From a virus, in IMG/VR virus record IMGVR_UViG_3300032288_001980, positions 119,899 through 183,898 of that record: 64,000 nucleotides of DNA; one strand, written 5' to 3'. The position numbers and the translations under genes are program-made. A model generated the notes under the pieces. That model did not search any database, was not told the DNA's origin, and worked only from the letters and a program-made list of their open reading frames with translations. Shown here in pieces: positions 1,158 to 37,619 of the stretch (positions are counted from its first letter, which is position 1; each line of letters opens with the position of its first letter).

Positions 1158-2207
1158 TTAGCTGTCTACACCGGAAGTTGTAAATCCTTCTGCCAAAATA
1201 TAAGCAGGAGGAGTAATATTAAAATTGGATTGACCGAATGAATTGGGCGCCGCATACATTACATTAGATGTTAGTACGTGTGTACCGTTTACATTTATTC
1301 TAAATGCCATGTTGTCCAACTCAAATCTAATAGCAACGGTTCCGTTATTGTCTACTAATCGACCATAGACCTTAAGTCTAAATGTGGAATATCCGCCATA
1401 ACCACCGTAACCTCCATATCCCCCGTAGCCGCCATAACCACCGTAACCTCCATATCCCCCGTAGCCGCCATAACCACCGTAACCGCCATAACCGCCACCT
1501 GAGCCAGCACTACTGGCTGTCATTAATAATATTTCATTGGCCGAAAGGTCATAAAATCCTTTATTTTCGCTAACTGCATAAGTGCCTGTATTTGATGCAG
1601 TATTGATATCTAATACAAATGTTCCTAGTTTGCTGTATACATCTTGCCATGACTGATAGCCGCGGCCGCTACCTCCGCTGGCAGTCATATGCAATCGTAA
1701 CTGACCGCCGCTATTAAAAAACCACCTAGCTTGGTCAAAACTACCAAATTGATAATTAACCGTAGCTGATATTTTATATTTCCATGGAGTAGATCTTGAT
1801 GTAGTACCTAATGTTGCAAATTGTTTTCTTGCAGATACTAAATTGTTTTTATTTGTATCAACCAGTGAATTTAATACTTTAAGAACCTGTGCTTGTTGCG
1901 CCGTAATAAGTTGTCCCACCGCTGTTCTAGACAAATTAGTTGTTAGTGGCAACGACCCTGTATTATGTGCAGAAATGTTAACTATGTCAATGGTACTATT
2001 CCATAATGAACTGGTTATTTTATTTCCGACTACTGCTAATTGTGCAGTGGGAGTTTGTCCCCAACCATATTTTAACAACGCTTTTCTTGCAGGATCAGTT
2101 GTAGGGCCACCACCTTGTTCGGTAGGTCCCCAGATTTTATTCACGGCCTGAGCTAGCTCATTCCATTGAGCCGCTGTTACTATTTGACCTTGGATAAAAT
2201 CAGTCAC
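1158..2207 (-). CDS. Virion/fiber-like protein with a (Gly-Gly-Tyr)n tract, 349 aa
   Basis: The protein starts MTDFIQGQIVTAAQWNELAQ, like the N-terminal part of several phage tail appendage proteins. Its C-terminal half is beta-rich. Between residues about 235 and 272 it carries roughly twelve tandem Gly-Gly-Tyr triplets in a row, preceded by a Gly/Ser stretch. Glycine-rich motifs are known to form the receptor-binding loops or polyglycine helices of T-even adhesins such as gp38; whether this tract does the same is inference. The gene sits directly downstream of the 2209 gene in a run of virion-protein genes. The triplets are encoded by a near-perfect 36-bp DNA repeat (see 1393-1482), which could change copy number. 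Confidence 0.65.
   Translation of the reverse strand: MTDFIQGQIVTAAQWNELAQAVNKIWGPTEQGGGPTTDPARKALLKYGWGQTPTAQLAVVGNKITSSLWNSTIDIVNISAHNTGSLPLTTNLSRTAVGQLITAQQAQVLKVLNSLVDTNKNNLVSARKQFATLGTTSRSTPWKYKISATVNYQFGSFDQARWFFNSGGQLRLHMTASGGSGRGYQSWQDVYSKLGTFVLDINTASNTGTYAVSENKGFYDLSANEILLMTASSAGSGGGYGGYGGYGGYGGYGGYGGYGGYGGYGGYGGYGGYSTFRLKVYGRLVDNNGTVAIRFELDNMAFRINVNGTHVLTSNVMYAAPNSFGQSNFNITPPAYILAEGFTTSGVDS
1393..1482. repeat. 36-bp tandem repeat coding for Gly-Gly-Tyr triplets
   Basis: Units at 1393-1428 and 1429-1464 are identical 36-mers, and 1465-1482 repeats the first half. Each unit encodes four Gly-Gly-Tyr triplets on the minus strand. Because codon choice is preserved between units, not just the amino acids, recent DNA-level duplication is more likely than selection on protein alone. 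The flanking sequence to about 1500 continues degenerate GGY triplets. Confidence 0.9.
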
Positions 2208-6900: not shown

Positions 6901-9900
6901 AAAGTCTTAGTTTTGAATACTACAGGAGCATACAGATAAACTGTTCCTTCAGTACCAGGATCAGTAACAATAGTAGAAATTTGTATTGTGTCAGAATCTA
7001 TTACGCTGTCGACCGTAACTATACCATCAATAGTATCACTACTATTAGAACCTGTAATTAACAACACATCGCCTGCTGTCATATTATGGGCTTCACTAAA
7101 TGTTACATTAGTTGGGCCAGTCGGGCTATCGTCTGCTTTGACAATTTCTGTTATTGTATAAGACTTTTGCTGTGATAAAACGCTCCACTTGCCTTCTTTA
7201 TAATTGCCTATCCAGATAGTTGGCTTTGTAGTTACATCAATGCTGTCGTATAGATCTTTTACAGATGTTGTGTCTGCTGTAACAAAATCAACGTCGTCAA
7301 AATTAATAAATCCTGCGTTAGGCAAATCTGTATCAAATACTACTTCATTTTGATCGTCGGTTAATTCAGATTTTTTACGAACAGGGAAAGTTAAATTTTC
7401 GGCGCCAGGACGATCAATCCATCGATTGTCCGAAGCCATAATATCAACGATTCTGTCGGTACTACGATCAATGTTACTAATTTCAGTAGTAGGGTCGTAG
7501 TCGGGTCTAAACCTAAACAGTTGTTTATTGTCTTTAAATTCTTTTTGTTTTAACTGTAAGCTCCATGATTGATTTGTTTCATTTGCACCAAAGTCTCCCA
7601 GCTTAAACATCCATTCTTCATCTACTTCCAACTCTTGCAAAGTATTAATTGTTCCTTCTACGTTGGTGTTACGTAAAAGTTTGCTATAGACAGCAGGAGT
7701 ACCCTGCTGACGAATCATTCCCCTTTGGAATTCAAATGTTACGCTAGGGTTTAACAATAAATTGTCAAGATAACTAGTGGTATTAATTCCTAAATTATGA
7801 CGAGCTGTTTCAACTAGTCTTGTGTTTAGAGTACTGCCTTCAATACTAAAGTATCTAGTTTCCATATCGGAAATAGTTCTATCATAGTTTGCTATAACTG
7901 TACTACCATTGATTAAATAACCGGCAGCACTTGGACGGCCTTGCCAATCTGCTGTGCGCTGGCCAATGAATTTTAATCTGTATTGTTTTAATCGTAAAAC
8001 TGGATCGTAGACAATATCATTAAATGCTGTAATGTTATCAAATATAACAGCATGTTCAATGTCTAGTATACGAATTCGAATACCAAATAATCCTGTTTGA
8101 TCGCTCTTAGTTGAAATAACAGTTACACCGTCATCTTCTCTACTAATTTTAACATTACTGATGTCCAACGGGACTTTATCTTTGTCTATCAGCGGAGCAA
8201 AGCCTCTGGTCATTACATTAAAGTCTTCAACAAAACCCTGTGGATTACTAATTATTAGTTTATTAGCACATGGACTTAATGCAATATAATATCCCTCTGC
8301 CCATTTAGTTTCGCTCCAAAACAAAAATTGTTGAGCACTTTGACGAAAGTCTTTAATACCATTCATAGTTGTATCAAAGTCACCAAATACTACCCCTTGG
8401 TCAACTATCCAGCGTTGTAGTCCTAGTAGGAAGTTAACTACTCCTTCTCTACTATTGAATACTGTGCCATAATCTACTAAACTAGGTGTTGTTTCCCAGT
8501 CTAGTGATTCTTTAACTGTAATATTACTATAAGTAAATTCGGTTACACGGCTAGTTGGCTTTGGTTTATATACTGTAAAATAAGGATTAATAAAGTCGTA
8601 ACCTTGAACTTCATAACCTTTGCCGTTATAAATTACTTTTACACCACTATAGAAGAATTCTTTATACGGAGTTCCTTTATAAAATGTTAAATTGTAACTT
8701 TCTTCGGGGATAAAATTTCCGCCGCTTTGAACTTTTAAACTGTCCGCAAGGAAACTTAAATTTCTCTTGTCAGCAAAACCGCCTAGTTTGAAAATGTTTT
8801 GTACAGTGGCATATCTTATTTGATTGTAAAAATAATCTGCCAATGTTTTACTGTCGCTGATTAAACTTTCAGCTATAATATTTTCTAGTCCGTAACGTAT
8901 AGTGGTATTGTCAGAATAAATGTTGTCGCCATATATTTCCCTGTGGAAAATATACTCCCCTACAGGAGGACGACTGCTTTGTAATTTACTTACAGAATAT
9001 TGAGTATTGTAAAAATCAGTGCCTTCAAATTCTGGTTGCCACGACTTTTCGATATACTTGTTAGGTGCTACTGTAAAGTACCATTGGGCCGCGGCCCAAG
9101 GATACTCTTCGCTTCGAATCCATGCAAGTTCTTGGTTGCCTAAGTCGCCTGCGGCCCAATCTAATTGAGCGGCTTCTTGACTAGGAGCAGATGTAATACC
9201 AGCCGTAACTGGATCTAACAAATGACCTAAATTGTTAACAGGAAAAATTGCGCTGGGTCTAGCAACCATATGATCAACTAATACCGCAGGAGGACAAGCA
9301 ACATTGCCTAACTGTAAGGCGTCAATTAACGGCTGTCTTTTGTAAGGGTCGGTCCAACTATAATGTGTATCCCACCATGTAGGCTTGACACTATAGCCCA
9401 ACATTTCCCATGGGTGAGTATGTGGACGATCTGTGTCATACAATGCTTTATAAATGCTTCTCCAACTGCCGCCTAGGCCGTTGCTAACAGTAGTGTAGTT
9501 CCAGGTAAATTTATTAGTCTGCTGATAAAAAGCAGTATTATCTAATTGATTAATACCATTGGTTGTTTTCCATAGTCTAAACAAATCACCAACATAGCTG
9601 GCCTTGTCTTCTCTAGAAACACGAGTGGATCTAAATAGTCCAGGTTCAGCATTAGTCCATCTAAAGCGTTTTTGTTTGAACCCGTCAAATATGTTATTAT
9701 AAATTCTTGTTTCTAATTCAAGTATTATATCATCTCTGTAATCGCCGTAAGCAACAATCATACTGCCGTCATGACATTGAATAAATGTTTTTGCAACGGG
9801 ATATGTGTTATCTGTAATAACCTCTGGCTTGTAAACTGGAGCCATGCCCAGTTTACTCAAACTAGCTGGCACAAAGCTATTGTTTTTAGTTTCATATACT

Positions 9901-17033: not shown

Positions 17034-17429
17034 ATGACTATGCATTTGGCTCACCCTAGTTTAACTATGTCTGGCAAACGCAAGGGCAAGAAAAAATTTC
17101 GTAATGCCGAAGAAGCTCGTAAAGCTCGCGCATTGGACGAGTCTTGGCAAGAATTGCAAAAGAAGTGGGGCATCGAAGCAGAAGAAAAGAAACGCAAGCG
17201 AGCGATGACAGCGCCATTGCTGACTACTGTTAAACCGTTTATTCGTGACACTGGTCCTCGTATTCCTAGCCTTAACGGCGGGCTTGATTCCGCTCCTGCC
17301 ACTTTAGCACCTAGTAAAGTGTATACCGGCACCAAAGTCAAAGGTATTGCTACTATGCACAAGTCAAATGCTGTACCAGTATTCAGCGACGAAGAAGCGG
17401 TTGAAATCAGCCGTATGCGTAGGGGTTAA
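17034..17429 (+). CDS. Small basic hypothetical protein, 131 aa
   Basis: The product is strongly basic at its N-terminus (SGKRKGKKKFRNAEEARKAR), then has a short coiled segment with LDESWQELQKKWGIEAEEKK and a Pro/Thr-rich C-terminal half ending DEEAVEISRMRRG. A TGGAGA ribosome site lies nine bases before the ATG; a second in-frame ATG is two codons on. Similar short basic proteins are common in T4-like phages, but I do not know a function; nucleic-acid binding is plausible from charge alone. Its last four bases overlap the end of the convergent oxygenase gene at 17426. Confidence 0.75.
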   Translation: MTMHLAHPSLTMSGKRKGKKKFRNAEEARKARALDESWQELQKKWGIEAEEKKRKRAMTAPLLTTVKPFIRDTGPRIPSLNGGLDSAPATLAPSKVYTGTKVKGIATMHKSNAVPVFSDEEAVEISRMRRG

Positions 17430-18109
17430 TCTTTACAACTTGTAAAGACGCTGAGTCCTATCTTACGGCGTGCGCCTGCTTGCAAAAAGTTTGTAGATAC
17501 ATGTAAGCATCTGCGATCAAAAACTATTACGTTTCCTGGTCGCCATTCAAATCGTTGCTGTACACTGAGTCCTTCAAAGTTATTGCGGGGCAAATGACTA
17601 CATTCTTCTACTAATTGCTCGTCGAATCCATGGGTAAGTTCAGCAACGTCTGAGTAATCTGTGATAACTTTGTTATATTCTTCTTTGACATCTGTGCTAC
17701 CTTTAACAAAAAACGCCGCTGGTCCATACCATCGTTGATTAAGTACGTATAGGGCATTCTTTGCGGGATTGTACTCTGTGCCGGCAAATACCTTTAAGGG
17801 AAACACAAATGTTTTCCACGGATTAGGGTCAGGTAGACCTGTGTCTGTATGTACTCTATATGGTACTTTGGTATCAAAAAAGTTTGCGTTATCTATTTTC
17901 CAAGTTCCTTGACCCAATTCATTGTTAATAATTGGAGTGATTATTTCTACAACTTTGGGTGTTATGTCGGAAAAATATCTACCTGTAAACTGAACATAGT
18001 TACTAGCATCGTACTGCTGTTGTTCTTGTTTAAAACCAGTATTGTGATGCTCCATTAATAATTCTGTTCTAGTATATAAATCTAAAACATTTTCTAATAC
18101 ATAAGCCAT
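17426..18109 (-). CDS. 2-oxoglutarate/Fe(II)-dependent oxygenase-like protein, 227 aa
   Basis: The predicted double-stranded beta-helix carries the facial triad pattern: H87-x-D89 in YRVHTDTG, H203 in FDRRCLHVSTNF, and basic R214/R215 in ARRKIGLSVF, where 2-oxoglutarate is normally held. Enzymes of this class hydroxylate or otherwise oxidise amino acids, nucleobases, lipids or small molecules; the substrate here is unknown. The ATG at 18109 overlaps the stop of the PP-loop gene as TAATG, so the two are translationally coupled. It is the last gene of a four-gene operon that starts at 19981. A frame reading further upstream is out of register with the PP-loop gene and is not needed. Confidence 0.8.
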   Translation of the reverse strand: MAYVLENVLDLYTRTELLMEHHNTGFKQEQQQYDASNYVQFTGRYFSDITPKVVEIITPIINNELGQGTWKIDNANFFDTKVPYRVHTDTGLPDPNPWKTFVFPLKVFAGTEYNPAKNALYVLNQRWYGPAAFFVKGSTDVKEEYNKVITDYSDVAELTHGFDEQLVEECSHLPRNNFEGLSVQQRFEWRPGNVIVFDRRCLHVSTNFLQAGARRKIGLSVFTSCKD

Positions 18110-18741
18110 TACTGTATGCCTGGATCTTTTTTGTTTAATTGTGCAAATGCCCACTGTCGTTCTGCACATTGGAAACACTGACCGCATCTGCCTACTTGTT
18201 GTTCTGTGCAACTATGGCTAAGTTCTAATAACTGCTCTTGCCCAAATTGATAATACAAATCTAACGTATGTCTTTTATCGAGATCTACAAAAGGAATCTG
18301 AGCTCTTTTATATTTGTTATGTACAGGACGTTCTGGATACAGTCCTGGCATCGGCCATTGTACTGGCGGTGTTTGTTGACTTCCATAAAATATATAATCT
18401 GCTATGCCATTTAACACTTCGATTGTGCCAGTTTCAACTTGTTTGCTATGATGAACAGTTGGATCACCTACCGGAATGGGTGCAGGTAAGTTTAGTCCTA
18501 GTACTCTGTTAACATACTTAACTATATCTGGACTGTATCTATAAGCACCATCAGTTCTGGGAACTGTAAAAGGAATCAGTTCTTTTGGTTGACTGCGCTC
18601 TTTGTTTAGTTTTGCAACTAGATATAACAGTATGGCGCTGTCCATGCCGCCACTAACAGTAACGGCTATTTTAGTTGGCCATTCTGGAATATAAATGTTA
18701 AATGTCCTGCGATCATTGGCAGGTCCGCATGTAATAAGCAT
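18109..18741 (-). CDS. QueC-like PP-loop ATPase with Cys4 zinc site, 210 aa
   Basis: The PP-loop SGGMDS is at residues 30-35, after a beta-strand KIAVTV, as in N-type ATP pyrophosphatases that adenylate a carboxylate or carbonyl. Near the C-terminus C178, C186, C189 and C192 (pattern C-x7-C-x2-C-x2-C followed by AERQWAF) match the zinc-binding signature of QueC, which makes 7-cyano-7-deazaguanine. Sequence length fits QueC (about 220). However, no QueD, QueE, FolE or transglycosylase gene is in this window, so the substrate may be different. The ATG overlaps the upstream stop as TGATG. Neighbours are two oxygenases and an HNH nuclease. Confidence 0.78.
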   Translation of the reverse strand: MLITCGPANDRRTFNIYIPEWPTKIAVTVSGGMDSAILLYLVAKLNKERSQPKELIPFTVPRTDGAYRYSPDIVKYVNRVLGLNLPAPIPVGDPTVHHSKQVETGTIEVLNGIADYIFYGSQQTPPVQWPMPGLYPERPVHNKYKRAQIPFVDLDKRHTLDLYYQFGQEQLLELSHSCTEQQVGRCGQCFQCAERQWAFAQLNKKDPGIQ

Positions 18742-19445
18742 CAATGTCTGTGTTGCAGATGTGCAATAACCTTATTGACATTAGCAACTGTAAAAGGAAT
18801 ATTCATAATTAAGTGGATACTGTCGTCTGTCCAACTAATTGTTCTGTGTGTCTTTTTTGTATTTACATAGTAGACACGGCCCTGTTCTATGTTAATTTTT
18901 TTATCGTCCATCCACCAATCATATTGTAGTGGGGCAACGTTTTTAACAAAACATGCCAATCTAAATTCTCTACGAGGAAAGCCCGGGCTATCTCTGTGCG
19001 GAACAAAATATCCGCCGGTATTACACTTAACAAAAAAGCTACGGCCAACAGGTGCAAATTCTTGAAATAAAGGATGCAGACTGGCGCAAGCATCGTAAAG
19101 TGCTGTAGGTTTAGTAAATGCGCTATCACCTACTGGACGACCTAATGCTTGCGCGGCTTCGGGCAAGCTCGGTAAACTACGATGGTCCCAGCCTTCAATG
19201 TCTAACGTAGTTAAACTAAGACCTTTGCGATTGTTTGGTCTGTCTGTTCTGGGCAAATAGTCGACCCAGTCGTTGGAAAACACCGCCAACTCTTGTTCAA
19301 GTTGGGCGGTGTCGATCATATAATCCAATGGCTCGAAGTCTCCGATACCCAGCAATGCAGTTTCTGCAACTAGTTTGTCGTAGTTACTGATTGCTGGGTC
19401 TACTGTACTCCTACTGTGACTTATGCCTTTACCATCTACTGTCAT
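18741..19445 (-). CDS. Aspartyl/asparaginyl beta-hydroxylase-like oxygenase, 234 aa
   Basis: The C-terminal half has the AspH-type cupin pattern: GGYFVPHRDS with H150 and D152 as metal ligands, then IEQGRVYYVNTKKTHRT with H200 as the third ligand, then a hydrophobic strand. AspH-family enzymes use 2-oxoglutarate and Fe(II) to hydroxylate Asp/Asn or related carboxylates in proteins or small molecules. The N-terminal 110 residues are of unknown role. The start ATGA overlaps the HNH stop by four bases. A related but apparently metal-ligand-free protein lies at 23284. Confidence 0.75.
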   Translation of the reverse strand: MTVDGKGISHSRSTVDPAISNYDKLVAETALLGIGDFEPLDYMIDTAQLEQELAVFSNDWVDYLPRTDRPNNRKGLSLTTLDIEGWDHRSLPSLPEAAQALGRPVGDSAFTKPTALYDACASLHPLFQEFAPVGRSFFVKCNTGGYFVPHRDSPGFPRREFRLACFVKNVAPLQYDWWMDDKKINIEQGRVYYVNTKKTHRTISWTDDSIHLIMNIPFTVANVNKVIAHLQHRH

Positions 19446-19981
19446 GCGGCCTTTACTAATTCTTCAGGCCAATGTATGTATTCTTTCCATGCATTGTCCC
19501 TAATGTAAATTGTTTGTTTACGAGCAAGTTTAGCCATTTCCCAGTATGTAGGTGCTCTTGGTTGTACCAATGGCTCCATTGGGTCCGTACCTTTAACAAA
19601 GTTACAAGTACGGCATGCTGTTACAATATTGTCCCAGTTAGTTTCGCCACCTTGGCTACGAGGCACCACGTGGTCAAAGGTCAAGTTGTCCACATGAAAC
19701 TGTTCGCCGCAGTACTGGCAACGGTATCCGTCTCGCATATAAACCATTTTACGGTTAAATGCTACACCAAAACTAGGATTAATATATCTTGTAGCCACAA
19801 TGATGCTAGGCACAGGAATAGTCAAATGTTGACTACGTACATGCCAATCATCATAGTTTTTAATTACTGTGGCCTTTTCCGAAAAAATTGCTTTTATAGC
19901 GGTTTGCCAGTCTACCGTGCTCAGTGGCACTAAGCATAGCGGCTGATAGTCTGCGTTCAGCACCAGTGTGTCATTGCTCAT
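19442..19981 (-). CDS. HNH endonuclease, 179 aa
   Basis: The HNH module spans about residues 80-130: C88-x2-C91, then LTFDHVVPRSQGG with D103-H104, then N118 and C123-x2-C126-N127. The two Cys pairs bind a structural zinc and the DH plus N form the beta-beta-alpha-metal nuclease centre. Length and layout match the short bacterial and phage HNH proteins of the McrA-like group, often free-standing homing or DNA-processing nucleases. I start it at ATG 19981; an upstream in-frame codon would add eight residues without a ribosome site. It leads the oxygenase/PP-loop operon, behind a sigma70-like promoter at 20012-20039. Confidence 0.88.
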   Translation of the reverse strand: MSNDTLVLNADYQPLCLVPLSTVDWQTAIKAIFSEKATVIKNYDDWHVRSQHLTIPVPSIIVATRYINPSFGVAFNRKMVYMRDGYRCQYCGEQFHVDNLTFDHVVPRSQGGETNWDNIVTACRTCNFVKGTDPMEPLVQPRAPTYWEMAKLARKQTIYIRDNAWKEYIHWPEELVKAA

Positions 19982-23066: not shown

Positions 23067-23306
23067 ATGACGCCAGAAGCAGTTAAAGCAATGTTATACG
23101 GAGGCTTAAAAGAGCTGACCGAAGACCGTAAGCTATTTCGTAAAAGTGAAATTGGTCGTAAGCACGAATACAGTTCGTGGACTGAAGAAGGCGAAGTGGC
23201 CGTAAAAGATTTTATTAGTCTTGTGACTACTCAAATGTTGATGGCCGAAGAAGCACGTATAGAATCCAAAGCCAAAGATATGGTCATGGACAACCTAAAG
23301 AAATAA
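23067..23306 (+). CDS. Small hypothetical protein, 79 aa
   Basis: The ATG at 23067 follows AATAAGGTAACT and encodes MTPEAVKAMLYGGLKELTED, a helical, charged chain (many Lys and Glu). Its frame extends upstream inside the ligase gene, but the leader at 23056-23066 fits this start. I do not recognise it. It overlaps the convergent 23284 gene by 23 bases, and is the last gene of the P4 unit. Confidence 0.65.
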   Translation: MTPEAVKAMLYGGLKELTEDRKLFRKSEIGRKHEYSSWTEEGEVAVKDFISLVTTQMLMAEEARIESKAKDMVMDNLKK

Positions 23307-23769
23307 GTTCTAAATTAGGATCTGTATTAACTAGGTCAATGACCTGTTCTATGGGTACTTTGAACTTAATACTGGCATAGACCATGCCTTTGTTTTTAAC
23401 GTCCCACATCATAGGTTCGGATTGTATATTAACTAGATAAGCACGACCTGCTTCTAGTTTTACAGGTTCCTGATCTTTGACGCAGTAATATTGCTCTCCA
23501 GCAGTATGCAAGTGCATGATCATAGATGTAAACCACAAACTCTTTCCGTAATGTAATCGCAACGTTGGGCCATACATGCTGTAACTAGGCTCTATGGCTA
23601 TGTGGGCTACACAATCGGGTATTCTATTTAAGAAATCTTGTTTATGTTCTCCCAATGGGGTAACAGATTTTTTATGCTGGGCAATGTGTATCTTATCCCA
23701 GTTTACCCATCTTAGATTTTCTTCCTGCCATCTATTGGGAAGACTAATACCTTTAATTTCGTATATCAT
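23284..23769 (-). CDS. Cupin-like protein related to the AspH-type gene, 161 aa
   Basis: The C-terminal part (KLEAGRAYLVNIQSEPMMWD, then YASIKFKVPIEQVIDLV) aligns by eye with IEQGRVYYVNTKKTHR and MNIPFTVANVNKVI of the protein at 18741, so the two share the beta-helix fold. But the H-x-D pair is absent from the expected strand, and the third histidine is replaced in SEPMMWD. It may therefore be a non-catalytic relative, or have shifted ligands (HLHTAGEQYY holds two histidines). The start overlaps the lysozyme-hub stop by four bases. It is the last gene of the 29573-23284 baseplate run, so late expression is likely. Confidence 0.6.
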   Translation of the reverse strand: MIYEIKGISLPNRWQEENLRWVNWDKIHIAQHKKSVTPLGEHKQDFLNRIPDCVAHIAIEPSYSMYGPTLRLHYGKSLWFTSMIMHLHTAGEQYYCVKDQEPVKLEAGRAYLVNIQSEPMMWDVKNKGMVYASIKFKVPIEQVIDLVNTDPNLELISLGCP

Positions 23770-33697: not shown

Positions 33698-34153
33698 ATG
33701 GACATTGTAATTACTAAAGAAAAAGATAAAACCGGAGAAGAAGTTGTTGTTAAATTAGCCCAGCAAATCGGGGGCAGTCCCGTGATGCCTTTCTTTTTAC
33801 GTAACTATGCGGATTTGATAGACAACGGGCATTCCAATCCCTTTATGTTTGGCACTAATAAAAGCAAAGCAGTTTATATTGAAGTCAACAATGAAGTTGC
33901 AGGGCATATTGTTTATGATATCTTAGACGATGCTTACAAAACTGCTTGGATTGTGTTTAGCTGTGTCGAAGACGGTTTTCGTCGAAGAGGCCTTTACATG
34001 ATTATGCACAGACACTTTGAGCAAATAGTCAAAAATGCGGGTAGCAAAAGAATAGCTAGCCATGTACATGTAGATAATAAAGTTCGTTATGCCAGCTGTG
34101 AAGCTGTTGGCATGAAACCGGACTTTTATAGAATGGAAAAGACAATAGCATGA
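33698..34153 (+). CDS. GNAT-type N-acetyltransferase-like protein, 151 aa
   Basis: VEDGFRRRGLYMIMHRHFEQ near residue 90 matches the R-x-x-G-x-G/A acetyl-CoA loop of the GNAT fold with its following helix, and the flanking strands (AVYIEVNNEVAGHIVYDI, KRIASHVHVDNK) fit. Typical substrates are amines of proteins, antibiotics or small molecules. It opens an accessory cluster after gp46 and shares ATGA with the next gene. Confidence 0.75.
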   Translation: MDIVITKEKDKTGEEVVVKLAQQIGGSPVMPFFLRNYADLIDNGHSNPFMFGTNKSKAVYIEVNNEVAGHIVYDILDDAYKTAWIVFSCVEDGFRRRGLYMIMHRHFEQIVKNAGSKRIASHVHVDNKVRYASCEAVGMKPDFYRMEKTIA

Positions 34154-34989
34154 CATTAAAAGAACAATTTGAACAAAATGGATGGGTAGGACCTATTCAA
34201 ATTATGTCGCGAGAAGAAGCACTGGCTTATAAAGAAATTGCGATGGACACTGAAGAGCAACTAAAACTAATGAACAGTGACTATCGTTGTAAAAGCAATG
34301 TGTTGTTTCCTTTTGTCGATCGCATTAGTCGCAGTCCTAAGTTGATAGAAGCCTTAACTGAACTTATTGGGCCGAATATTCATTGTTGGGACACACTATT
34401 TTGGATTAAAAAGCCAGGTGATGGCAAAGATGTTAGTTTCCACCAAGACGCTACTTACTGGAACTTTGATAAAAAACATCTAGCAGTTACCGCATGGTTC
34501 GCATTCGATGATGTTGTACCTGAACACGGCAGTCTTGAATATGTACAAGGCAGTCATAGAGTTTTTCAACGTAGACACAAAGATGTTAAAACTGACACTA
34601 ATCTTTTGATGCGTGGCCAAACTGTTGATGAAGACTTGCCTAAAGAACGTGTTAAAACTACAGTTCCGGCCGGTAGCGTCTTGTTACACAGTCCTTATAT
34701 TATTCACGGGTCTGGTCCTAATCGTGCGGCCACTAACCGCGTGGCCATGGGAATGATCTTTGCCAGCACAGAATGTAAGCCTATTTTAAATAGAGCTCCA
34801 GAATCTACTGTAATGGTTTCGGGTACCGACACTTATAACTATATGATACATGATCCCCAGCCAACGGGCAACTGGGAAGCCGATAAGGCTAATTGGCGCA
34901 AAGCCTATGATCGTCAACATGACAATTATTACTTTATGGAACAATCTCCTGCAAGCCCTTATAAGGAATTCGAAAAGGCAGTTGCATGA
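34150..34989 (+). CDS. Phytanoyl-CoA dioxygenase (PhyH)-like oxygenase, 279 aa
   Basis: The PhyH pattern is well kept: FHQDATYWNF with H98 and D100 as iron ligands, HGSLEYVQGSHR after it, and IIHGSGPNRAATNRVAMGMIF with H186 and R197 as the third ligand and 2-oxoglutarate anchor. PhyH-type enzymes hydroxylate fatty acyl-CoA, amino acids or nucleobase derivatives; here the substrate is unknown. PhyH-like genes are frequent in marine T4-like phages. It overlaps both neighbours by four bases. Confidence 0.88.
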   Translation: MTLKEQFEQNGWVGPIQIMSREEALAYKEIAMDTEEQLKLMNSDYRCKSNVLFPFVDRISRSPKLIEALTELIGPNIHCWDTLFWIKKPGDGKDVSFHQDATYWNFDKKHLAVTAWFAFDDVVPEHGSLEYVQGSHRVFQRRHKDVKTDTNLLMRGQTVDEDLPKERVKTTVPAGSVLLHSPYIIHGSGPNRAATNRVAMGMIFASTECKPILNRAPESTVMVSGTDTYNYMIHDPQPTGNWEADKANWRKAYDRQHDNYYFMEQSPASPYKEFEKAVA

Positions 34990-35510
34990 TTTTTAAAGAT
35001 TGGCGCGATTGCGATCAAAGTCCTATTGACTTAAATTTTGAACGTCATAAAATATATTATGTACATGCTAGAGCATGGCATATTAAAGGATACCTATTAG
35101 GTAGACATAGTTATCTTACTTGGTGGGATAAAAAACACAAAAAGCAATTGGTTATTGAATACACTGATAGAGAAACTTTAGATATACAAAATGCTAACAT
35201 ATTGTATTCTGGAAGAGAAGAGTATACACTACACGCTCCTTATATCAGTGACAGGCTAGCTAATGCTCGTTGGTTTGGTGCCGATCCTGTTATCAAAGCA
35301 GAATGTACTAATCATTTACAGTATGAAGACCTTGTTAGTGCTTGCGAACATTATCCTTATAAGACAACATCTTTTGATTTATTAAAAAATAACTGTAACA
35401 CTTTTACATCTTATTTGTTGTATCAATTAGACTTAGACATCAAGCAGCCTTGGCCTGCAATTGGACACAAAAACAGACAGACATGGATTAATTATGGACT
35501 TGAAATTTGA
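34986..35510 (+). CDS. DUF3750-like protein, 174 aa
   Basis: The chain has the DUF3750 layout as I remember it: ARAWHIKGYLLGRHSYLTWW, then ANARWFGADPV, then YPYKT and NNCNTFTSYLLY, ending PWPAIGHKN. The conserved Asn-x-Asn-Thr-Phe region and His suggest an enzyme with a papain-like arrangement, possibly a hydrolase or transferase, but the family has no established function that I know. It shares four bases with the PhyH gene and 17 with the next PP-loop gene. Homology is judged by eye. Confidence 0.5.
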   Translation: MIFKDWRDCDQSPIDLNFERHKIYYVHARAWHIKGYLLGRHSYLTWWDKKHKKQLVIEYTDRETLDIQNANILYSGREEYTLHAPYISDRLANARWFGADPVIKAECTNHLQYEDLVSACEHYPYKTTSFDLLKNNCNTFTSYLLYQLDLDIKQPWPAIGHKNRQTWINYGLEI

Positions 35511-36579
35511 GTATACAGAGAACAATCATTTCAAATGGGGATTCGGTGACGAGTGGTATAATCGACCGGACCCCACTAAACAATATAAAATACATCTAGG
35601 ATATACTACTAGACCGGTAATGCGCTTCAGAGAAGAATGCATCGACGTGGCTAGAAAAATTGCCGCAAAAGCTACTAAGCCCATAATAGTGGGGCTCAGT
35701 GGTGGCAGTGATAGTCAAATGGTCTGTTTGAGTTTTAGAGAAGCAGGAGTTCCGTTTAAAGTTGTTATTGTAAAAATGTATGATAACGAAGAACGATTAG
35801 TTAACGGACACGATATTAAGACTGCTTATGCTTTTTGTGAAAAGTACAACATCGAATGGATTGATTTCGAAATTAATGTCGACGAGTATTATCAGACTAA
35901 GGGCGCAGAATACGCAGCCAAGTACGGCTTAACAGGTGTTCATACATTATTACAATGCGCCACCATGGACTTTGTAGGGCAAGATTACTGCTATATTATG
36001 GGCGGTGGCGATATTGTGTTTGCCCCTTATAAAACTTATGTAACTCCTGACGTTGCAGATCAATTGCCTACCATTCCTAATTTAGATCAAATGGTTAGGC
36101 CTTGCTGGTGGCAAACACCGTTGCCTATCATGCAACATATGATGACTATGGGCTATGAAGGTACTAGTAAATTTTATTTGTATACCCCGGAAATTATTGC
36201 CGCTTACTTAACAGATCCAGTAGTCACTGACTTTTTAAATGCTCAAGATACTATTTACGAAGTGTTTTGCAGATGGCATCCTTATTCTAGGATGTGGTGG
36301 CGCTGTTTCCATATGTTGTTTAAACCATTGATGACACAACGCGAATGGCCTGAAATGCTTCCTGCAAGAAAATACACAGGGTTCGAACAGTTACAAGGTA
36401 AAAATTTTAACTCTGGTAAAGAAGTGCTTTATCAAAAATGGATTAATGATGCCGCCGGTGGAATATCAGACGGTCAAGTTATAACTACTCCGATTCCGGA
36501 ATTAATCAAATATGTAACTACTCCTCACGATCATAATTTAGTTTCTACTAGAATTGTACGCGGAGTTAATGTAGGTTGA
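35494..36579 (+). CDS. PP-loop ATPase, asparagine-synthetase-like domain, 361 aa
   Basis: The PP-loop SGGSDS (residues 69-74) follows a strand PIIVGL, and helix QMVCLSFREAG follows, as in asparagine synthetase, GMP synthetase and ExsB/QueC-type enzymes that adenylate a substrate. A second conserved-looking GGGDIVFAPYK segment lies near residue 173. No glutaminase domain is present, so nitrogen, if used, would come from ammonia or another donor. I start at ATG 35494; an ATG at 35461 in the same frame lies deep inside the DUF3750-like gene. It is one of two adjacent PP-loop genes. Confidence 0.8.
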   Translation: MDLKFEYTENNHFKWGFGDEWYNRPDPTKQYKIHLGYTTRPVMRFREECIDVARKIAAKATKPIIVGLSGGSDSQMVCLSFREAGVPFKVVIVKMYDNEERLVNGHDIKTAYAFCEKYNIEWIDFEINVDEYYQTKGAEYAAKYGLTGVHTLLQCATMDFVGQDYCYIMGGGDIVFAPYKTYVTPDVADQLPTIPNLDQMVRPCWWQTPLPIMQHMMTMGYEGTSKFYLYTPEIIAAYLTDPVVTDFLNAQDTIYEVFCRWHPYSRMWWRCFHMLFKPLMTQREWPEMLPARKYTGFEQLQGKNFNSGKEVLYQKWINDAAGGISDGQVITTPIPELIKYVTTPHDHNLVSTRIVRGVNVG

Positions 36580-36581
36580 TT

Positions 36582-37619
36582 ATGAAACAGTATTTGTGGG
36601 CAAATTGGAATAAATTAGATTATTCGTCTATGCCTTATAGGGATGGTTTTAAAAGTGTAGCCGGCTGGTTTGAATTTCCTGTGGACCGATTTAATGTACT
36701 GAATAATAAATTAGAACTACCCACATATAACATTGTTAAAGATCCAGTGTACTCTTTAACTAATTTAACCAATGATTGGGAATGTAGACTTTATAGTATA
36801 TTAGATCAAATTGCCGATAGAGTTTTTAAAACTGCTGGTGAAAAAACTATTGTGCTGACTTGGAGTGGTGGCATTGATAGTTCTTGTATTTTAGTTTCGT
36901 TAAAGAAACATCCTGAATTTAAAACAAAATTAGAACAGGGCAAATTTAAAATTGCCTTAACTAGCACAAGCATAGACGAATATCCTGAACAATTTTATAG
37001 AGACATATTACCTTCAATCCCTATTACTACCTTAGATTATCTCAGGTTAATGAATGATCCTGATGTAATGTTAGTAACCGGAGACATGGGAGATCACGTA
37101 ATAGGCTCAACAGATGTCCTTAGATTTACTAACGGGCTACCTGGAGATTTAGATTTAATGTTACCATGGAAACAAGTATTACCTAGAATAGTCGAAGTTA
37201 ATGACAATGCGTTTTATCAAGATTTATTGTTTACAATAGTTAAAAAAGCACCTTTTGAAATTTTATCTATTAATCAATTGATGTGGTGGTGGGCAAATGC
37301 TTTAGACCATCAGGACGATTTACTACGACCATGGTACTGGAGCACTACTACTGATTTATCGGAAATAGCTAGCCAAAACAAAGTCTTTAGATTCTTTTAC
37401 GATGATGCATTAATGACTTTTAGTTTTGAGTACATGAGTACTAATCCCGAATATCATACTTACATTGACAATAAATTATGGATTAAAAGATATATTGTAA
37501 ACAGCAACGGCGACGAACACTATATTAATAAACAAAAAATATTCAGTCAACGTATGAGTTTGCGTCATACATTTAAAACAGAGATATATTACGAAAACGG
37601 TGCAGTTGCATGGCAATAA
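36582..37619 (+). CDS. PP-loop ATPase, second copy type, 345 aa
   Basis: TIVLTWSGGIDSSCIL holds the PP-loop SGGIDS at residues 95-100. TGDMGDHVIGS further on recalls the GDG/GD loop of asparagine synthetase that binds Mg. It is not a close copy of the 35494 protein: only the loop and surrounding strands agree, so divergence is old. Start at ATG 36582, overlapping region with the previous stop at 36577-36579 by none; a TTG six bases upstream is less likely. It is followed by an overlapping gene of unknown type. Confidence 0.78.
   Translation: MKQYLWANWNKLDYSSMPYRDGFKSVAGWFEFPVDRFNVLNNKLELPTYNIVKDPVYSLTNLTNDWECRLYSILDQIADRVFKTAGEKTIVLTWSGGIDSSCILVSLKKHPEFKTKLEQGKFKIALTSTSIDEYPEQFYRDILPSIPITTLDYLRLMNDPDVMLVTGDMGDHVIGSTDVLRFTNGLPGDLDLMLPWKQVLPRIVEVNDNAFYQDLLFTIVKKAPFEILSINQLMWWWANALDHQDDLLRPWYWSTTTDLSEIASQNKVFRFFYDDALMTFSFEYMSTNPEYHTYIDNKLWIKRYIVNSNGDEHYINKQKIFSQRMSLRHTFKTEIYYENGAVAWQ

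Follow-up and report, generated by a model that had tools for sequence, protein, structure and literature searches.

A three-gene enzyme module that is conserved among uncultured aquatic phages lies in the window, a 64-kb stretch of viral DNA that forms the end of a 183,898-bp IMG/VR virus record (G000) and, judged from its open reading frame (ORF) content, looks like part of a T4-like myovirus. The module consists of an AspH-type oxygenase (AspH), a second 2-oxoglutarate (2OG)-dependent oxygenase (2OG) and a QueC-like PP-loop enzyme, the last of which is exchanged for a nitroreductase-family enzyme in other phages. In our assessment its best explanation, with a probability of roughly 45%, is a modification system whose substrate is probably a protein or peptide. 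In the window the module is encoded on the minus strand behind an HNH endonuclease gene, the four genes together spanning positions 17426-19981. The original prediction described four overlapping genes here, and direct reading confirmed their coordinates, their order and the junctions ATGA, TGATG and TAATG between them:

19442..19981, minus strand: HNH endonuclease, 179 aa (PF01844, E 1.8e-16; phrog_16726, E 2e-38)
18741..19445, minus strand: AspH-type Fe(II)/2-oxoglutarate oxygenase, 234 aa, core of the module (iron triad; hhalign to AspH families)
18109..18741, minus strand: QueC-like Zn-binding N-type PP-loop ATP enzyme, 210 aa (PF06508, E 4.4e-9; motifs; Cap9 fold match)
17426..18109, minus strand: 2OG-Fe(II) oxygenase, 227 aa, with a prolyl-hydroxylase/SnoN-type double-stranded beta-helix (AlphaFold2 model, VIA, triad)

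Conservation of the module

A profile search of IMG/VR with AspH returned 86 stretches, 80 of which were kept as AspH loci, while close-alignment and single-protein scans yielded just three near-identical loci. Membership of the other families in the loci was scored with hidden Markov models built from clusters. The 2OG family was found in 64 of the 80 AspH loci (within 3 kb in 62) and the QueC-like family in 44, with 37 of these 44 placing it at most 20 nt from AspH (usually 0-14 nt), on either side. After dereplication at 90% AspH identity, the families were present in 40/53 and 28/53 AspH loci, respectively. Gene order and orientation differ between loci, and therefore the linkage is conserved and the arrangement is not. 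By these counts, AspH, 2OG and either the QueC-like or the nitroreductase enzyme constitute a conserved phage-specific module, the membership of which is well supported. Literature searches gave no account of such a module. Three families that are uncatalogued or, in the case of QueC, misleadingly catalogued thus form one linked and widespread phage module, known from uncultured phages of lakes and the sea and, distantly, from one of 50,697 GenBank phage records.

In the window's own clade the operon itself recurs: the overlapping HNH-AspH-QueC-like-2OG arrangement is also present in L011, L012/L034, L013/L035 and L024/L036. The ratio of nonsynonymous to synonymous substitution rates (dN/dS) of the operon genes was 0.01-0.06 where computable, against two close relatives and with dS near saturation or saturated. 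Because of this recurrence and the low dN/dS, the four-gene operon is not a product of chance, and the values point to strong purifying selection. AspH is the best conserved of the operon proteins (95-98% identity to the two close relatives) and 2OG the least (76%). A promoter scan of the minus strand upstream of the HNH gene returned zero sites.

The original prediction treated all four genes as a unit and named lack of co-occurrence in relatives as the result that would speak against it. For AspH, QueC-like and 2OG, which occur together across many diverged phages, no such lack was seen, and their co-occurrence is naturally read as a small modification pathway. The HNH gene does not belong to this unit: only 7 of the 80 AspH loci have it within 3.5 kb. 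To judge from its family matches it is an ordinary PF01844 protein; it lies outside the conserved core, is the first operon gene in the clade of the window phage only, and would be a passenger gene.

Searching from the QueC side gave 199 relatives, 80 of which were kept. AspH was present in 48 of these loci, 2OG in 43, either of them in 50 and any of six oxygenase/cupin families in 62; the QueC-like family is therefore broader than the module.

Exchange of the QueC-like enzyme for a nitroreductase

In 15 of the 80 AspH loci, AspH is adjoined by a gene of the nitroreductase family (PF00881, E 5e-13 for one member), which occupies the usual slot of the QueC-like gene. The QueC-like family was found in 0/15 nitroreductase loci, compared with 44/65 of the others (Fisher p=8e-7). 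Records are mostly fragments, so that absence from any single one is no proof. Among the dereplicated loci none had both, 10 had the nitroreductase, 28 the QueC-like gene and 15 neither (p=1.7e-4), and among whole records, counting matches below 1e-40, none had both, 10 had only the nitroreductase, 20 only the QueC-like gene and three neither (p=3e-6). The first 23 records alone, picked mainly by length, also gave exclusion (p=6e-4). One nitroreductase record (G015) holds a weak QueC-like paralogue (1.8e-22). None of the 80 QueC-side loci had an AspH-linked nitroreductase, and a single distant nitroreductase was found among them. Mapping of the QueC-like/nitroreductase label on the AspH tree gave eight changes, at least three of which are required by supported branches, and the pattern is therefore not a single lineage split. 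The QueC-like and nitroreductase enzymes are thus mutually exclusive, with repeated switching between them. That an ATP enzyme has repeatedly given way to a flavoenzyme in one slot is a sharp clue, open to biochemical test.

The cultured Pelagibacter phage Mosig has a distant AspH, whose gene neighbour is annotated as a nitroreductase in GenBank. Profile comparison of this nitroreductase with the AspH-linked ones gave a weak match (probability 18%), so that kinship is not established. The genes belong to an island next to the tail fibre gene (L136, Mosig EXVC030M, record positions 54352-66942), which encodes AspH, the nitroreductase, MoaA-like, aminotransferase, desaturase, TauD and methylase proteins.

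The two oxygenases

The iron triad of AspH (H150-x-D152...H200) and residues R162, R201 and H211 are invariant in 59/59 members. Profile-profile alignment by hhalign related AspH to a phage family bearing PF05118 (E 7e-6, probability 84) and to a protein of phage Mosig annotated as Asp_Arg_Hydrox (E 1.5e-25). None of the 59 members matched PF05118 itself, and the Mosig relative scored 18 bits, below the gathering score of 22.6. This Mosig protein was the only relative of AspH, and a distant one, among the 50,697 GenBank phage records, in which 2OG and the QueC-like protein had zero matches. AspH peptide patterns gave no confirmed relative in 84,980 prokaryote genomes, a search that is limited by the patterns and does not prove absence.

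The model of 2OG had a mean predicted local distance difference test (pLDDT) score of 90. Its closest structural match by VIA was SnoN (Z 14.6 over 165 residues), and its neighbours at Z 13-14.6 included SnoK, prolyl hydroxylases, PHD2 and a viral collagen prolyl hydroxylase (Z 13.4). Residues H87-x-D89...H203 and K216 were present in 52/52 relatives. AspH and 2OG showed no detectable relationship to each other, and no Pfam or PHROG family accounts for either of the window proteins. AspH defines a phage family of its own, one that has no Pfam or PHROG entry. Both oxygenases share their triads and fold type with AspH/Asp_Arg_Hydrox (PF05118) enzymes and prolyl 4-hydroxylases, whose known substrates are proteins, peptides or amino acids, but no Pfam model recognises the module members.

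The QueC-like enzyme

The original prediction raised a possible link of the operon to 7-deazaguanine-type modification. In its simplest form, the QueC-like protein would be a phage 7-cyano-7-deazaguanine (preQ0) synthase supplying preQ0 to a DpdA-like enzyme. The protein exceeds the PF06508 gathering score (36.6 bits against 22), its ATP motif and the four Cys of its Zn motif are intact, and its model (pLDDT 93) has the QueC fold. However, it scored only 27 bits against the NCBIfam equivalog TIGR00364, far under the 150-bit cut-off, and the substrate motifs differ. Canonical QueC has SGGxDS, YxQxHxxE, VPxRN, YPDC, a Lys and C(x)8CxxCxxC (PMC13329287), and in both Cap9 and QueC the 7-deazaguanine base is held by the Tyr and Asp of the YPD site (PMC13279940). 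All 47 members of the QueC-like clade retain SGGxDS, the Lys and four Cys, and 46-47 of them C-x7-CxxCxxC-x-ER; the Zn motif of the window protein has C(x)7 spacing where canonical QueC has C(x)8. DGxxxY and GDPxxHxxQ stand in place of YxQxHxxE and VPxRN. YPDC became (Y)PxR, with Tyr in 24/47, Cys replaced by Arg in 45/47, and K, E, S, N, V or Q at the Asp position, so that the Tyr/Asp pair reading 7-carboxy-7-deazaguanine (CDG) is lost and R138 is gained. The gene is also distant from folE, queD and queE in its own genome, and two records with QueE and a DpdA-like gene lack a close copy of it. We consider a role as preQ0 synthase very improbable.

The closest known relative is Cap9 of type IV CBASS (cyclic oligonucleotide-based anti-phage signalling system; PDB 9nto), the top match both by profile (E 4e-8) and by Foldseek. 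VIA Z-scores were 14.8 for Cap9, 13.6 and 12.9 for QueC, 12.3 for QatC and at most 11.6 for other PP-loop enzymes. The QueC-like protein and Cap9 share a compact Zn-binding PP-loop fold, SGGxDS, CxxCxxC and an acidic-Arg end. Cap9, however, keeps Tyr115/Asp117, RN and GQxxxxxE for CDG (PMC13279940, PMC13329287), where the QueC-like protein has DGxxxY, GDPxxHxxQ and PxR; none of the Cap9 motifs Y/FxQ(x)5E, RN and YxDC was found in the profile alignment of the QueC-like protein to 9nto_B. Its partners are oxygenases and, unlike for Cap9, no CD-NTase was recognised by eye among the locus ORFs, which were not searched systematically. With canonical QueC it shares the fold, the ATP loop, the four Cys and the conserved Lys, but it is not linked to queD or queE. 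QatC of qatABCD likewise combines the QueC fold with changed substrate residues; it differs in having N- and C-terminal extensions and C-x19-CGxCxxRR, compared with 210 aa and C-x7-CxxCxxC here.

The QueC-like proteins are therefore best described as a new clade of predicted carboxylate-adenylating amide ligases or amidotransferases, in which ATP-dependent carboxylate activation would be retained and the substrate changed, as proposed for QatC. The clade joins QatC and Cap9 as a branch of the QueC family that has apparently departed from 7-deazaguanine, and automatic QueC annotation in such phages is therefore not evidence of DNA modification. In L075 (6046-6702) and L077 (6057-6704) the module adjoins a further QueC-like paralogue, which has diverged to about 23% identity with the window protein.

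7-Deazaguanine genes in the phage

The original prediction stated that the remainder of a deazaguanine pathway is missing, which holds for the window and not for the 183,898-bp record. The search it proposed for queD/E, folE and dpdA in the remaining genome recovered all of these, dpdA as a candidate, at the following positions of G000:

8654-9157, outside the window: QueD
77099-78631, outside the window: DpdA-like ORF, 510 aa, with TGT-like motifs
83452-84132, outside the window: FolE
86412-87305, outside the window: QueE

The DpdA-like ORF carries DSGGFQ, QGG, MGG and FDCASP in the order of tRNA-guanine transglycosylases (TGT). It had no match in Pfam (including PF01702), PHROG, NCBIfam or PDB, and no hhalign match to 9g DpdA. 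Homologues occur in PA5oct, beside QueE, and in Vibrio phage 2.275.O, close to folE and QueF. G000 yielded no canonical QueC, the QueC-like gene being its only QueC-family gene. Because FolE, QueD, QueE and the DpdA-like ORF are present, spread over the rest of the genome, without a canonical QueC, CDG would be the expected end product, and the gene content suggests a 7-deazaguanine, perhaps dCDG (deoxy-CDG), as a plausible constituent of the DNA of this phage.

These observations leave another role in DNA hypermodification to be considered, in which the QueC-like enzyme acts on a carboxylated base, possibly on CDG inserted by the DpdA-like enzyme, by amidating or conjugating it, and the oxygenases add further changes. 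Precedent for a phage PP-loop amide ligase acting on a carboxyl handle in DNA is provided by CmoY of Synechococcus phage S-B43 (PMC12783734). Like the predicted QueC-like enzyme, CmoY couples a carboxylate to an amine; unlike it, CmoY belongs to another PP-loop branch (asparagine-synthetase type) and acts with CmoA/CmoX on cytosine, and oxygenase partners are not reported. Against this role, the QueC-like protein has lost the Asp by which the base edge is read. Among 23 records, the DpdA-like gene was present in eight, the QueC-like gene in 16 and both in four, which is no association (Fisher p=0.18). QueE and the DpdA-like gene occur together with the nitroreductase in G014 and G015, the two records lacking a close QueC-like copy, and the module is present without QueE and the DpdA-like gene in G016 (244 kb), G017 (188 kb) and G019 (159 kb). 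Hypermodification of DNA by the module is accordingly improbable. Since the CDG-recognition residues and two QueC motifs are lost and module and pathway occur separately, the link of the operon to 7-deazaguanine is probably wrong, even though the phage has the pathway genes. The interest of the operon lies in the module and its partner swap, not in deazaguanine.

Proposed function of the module

We favour a protein or peptide as the target because the nearest known relatives of the module enzymes (AspH, prolyl hydroxylases and Cap9) modify proteins. AspH and 2OG would use Fe(II), O2 and 2-oxoglutarate to hydroxylate or oxidise one shared substrate, most likely a phage or host protein or peptide. 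By chemistry as in QueC and Cap9, the QueC-like enzyme would adenylate a carboxylate, on a substrate other than CDG, and hand it to ammonia or an amine, giving an amide or conjugate. In the other phages the nitroreductase would finish the same intermediate in a different way. Only tentatively do we propose the specific form of this scheme, a phage post-translational modification system in which two oxygenases hydroxylate a protein and the QueC-like ligase or the flavoenzyme completes a covalent mark.

Several findings weigh against this reading. No substrate gene and no short conserved peptide was seen in the operon, and 30 of the 80 QueC-side loci had neither AspH nor 2OG in the fetched stretch. 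The fold neighbours of 2OG include the small-molecule enzymes SnoN, GriE and proline hydroxylase H11, besides SnoK. Module neighbourhoods often contain radical S-adenosylmethionine (SAM), AMP-ligase, desaturase, methyltransferase and short-chain dehydrogenase/reductase (SDR) genes, and are also rich in GNAT and epimerase genes, a content that would suit small-molecule or glycan chemistry too. For this reason the main rival is a role of the module in making or finishing an amino-acid-derived metabolite or a sugar ornament, in the infected cell or on a surface polymer. The aminotransferase, MoaA-like genes and tail fibre at the Mosig island agree with such a role. These neighbours differ by phage, however, and only AspH, 2OG and the QueC-like or nitroreductase gene recur; the module loci share no committed biosynthetic enzyme, and the window operon holds no further enzyme. 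On balance we regard small-molecule or glycan chemistry as rather unlikely, and retain modification of a protein or peptide as the preferred reading.

Other features of the record

At window positions 23284-23769, a 161-aa protein with no family match has a cupin/AspH-like look without a clear HxD pair, and occupies the same position in the L012 and L013 relatives. A second coupled cluster, the genes of which overlap by a few bases, lies at window positions 33698-37619 and encodes a GNAT protein, a PhyH dioxygenase (PF05721, E 3e-23), a PPPDE-like peptidase and two asparagine-synthetase-like PP-loop proteins; similar PP-loop genes are found at G000 positions 37246, 105508 and 110014. Outside the window, at G000 63024-72183 and 115601-118010, there are arrays of proteins that carry radical-SAM/SPASM-like Cys motifs, along with relatives of these proteins, in a number unusual for a T4-like phage. 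A protein with a long run of GGY repeats (YGGYGGYGG...) is encoded at window positions 1158-2207.

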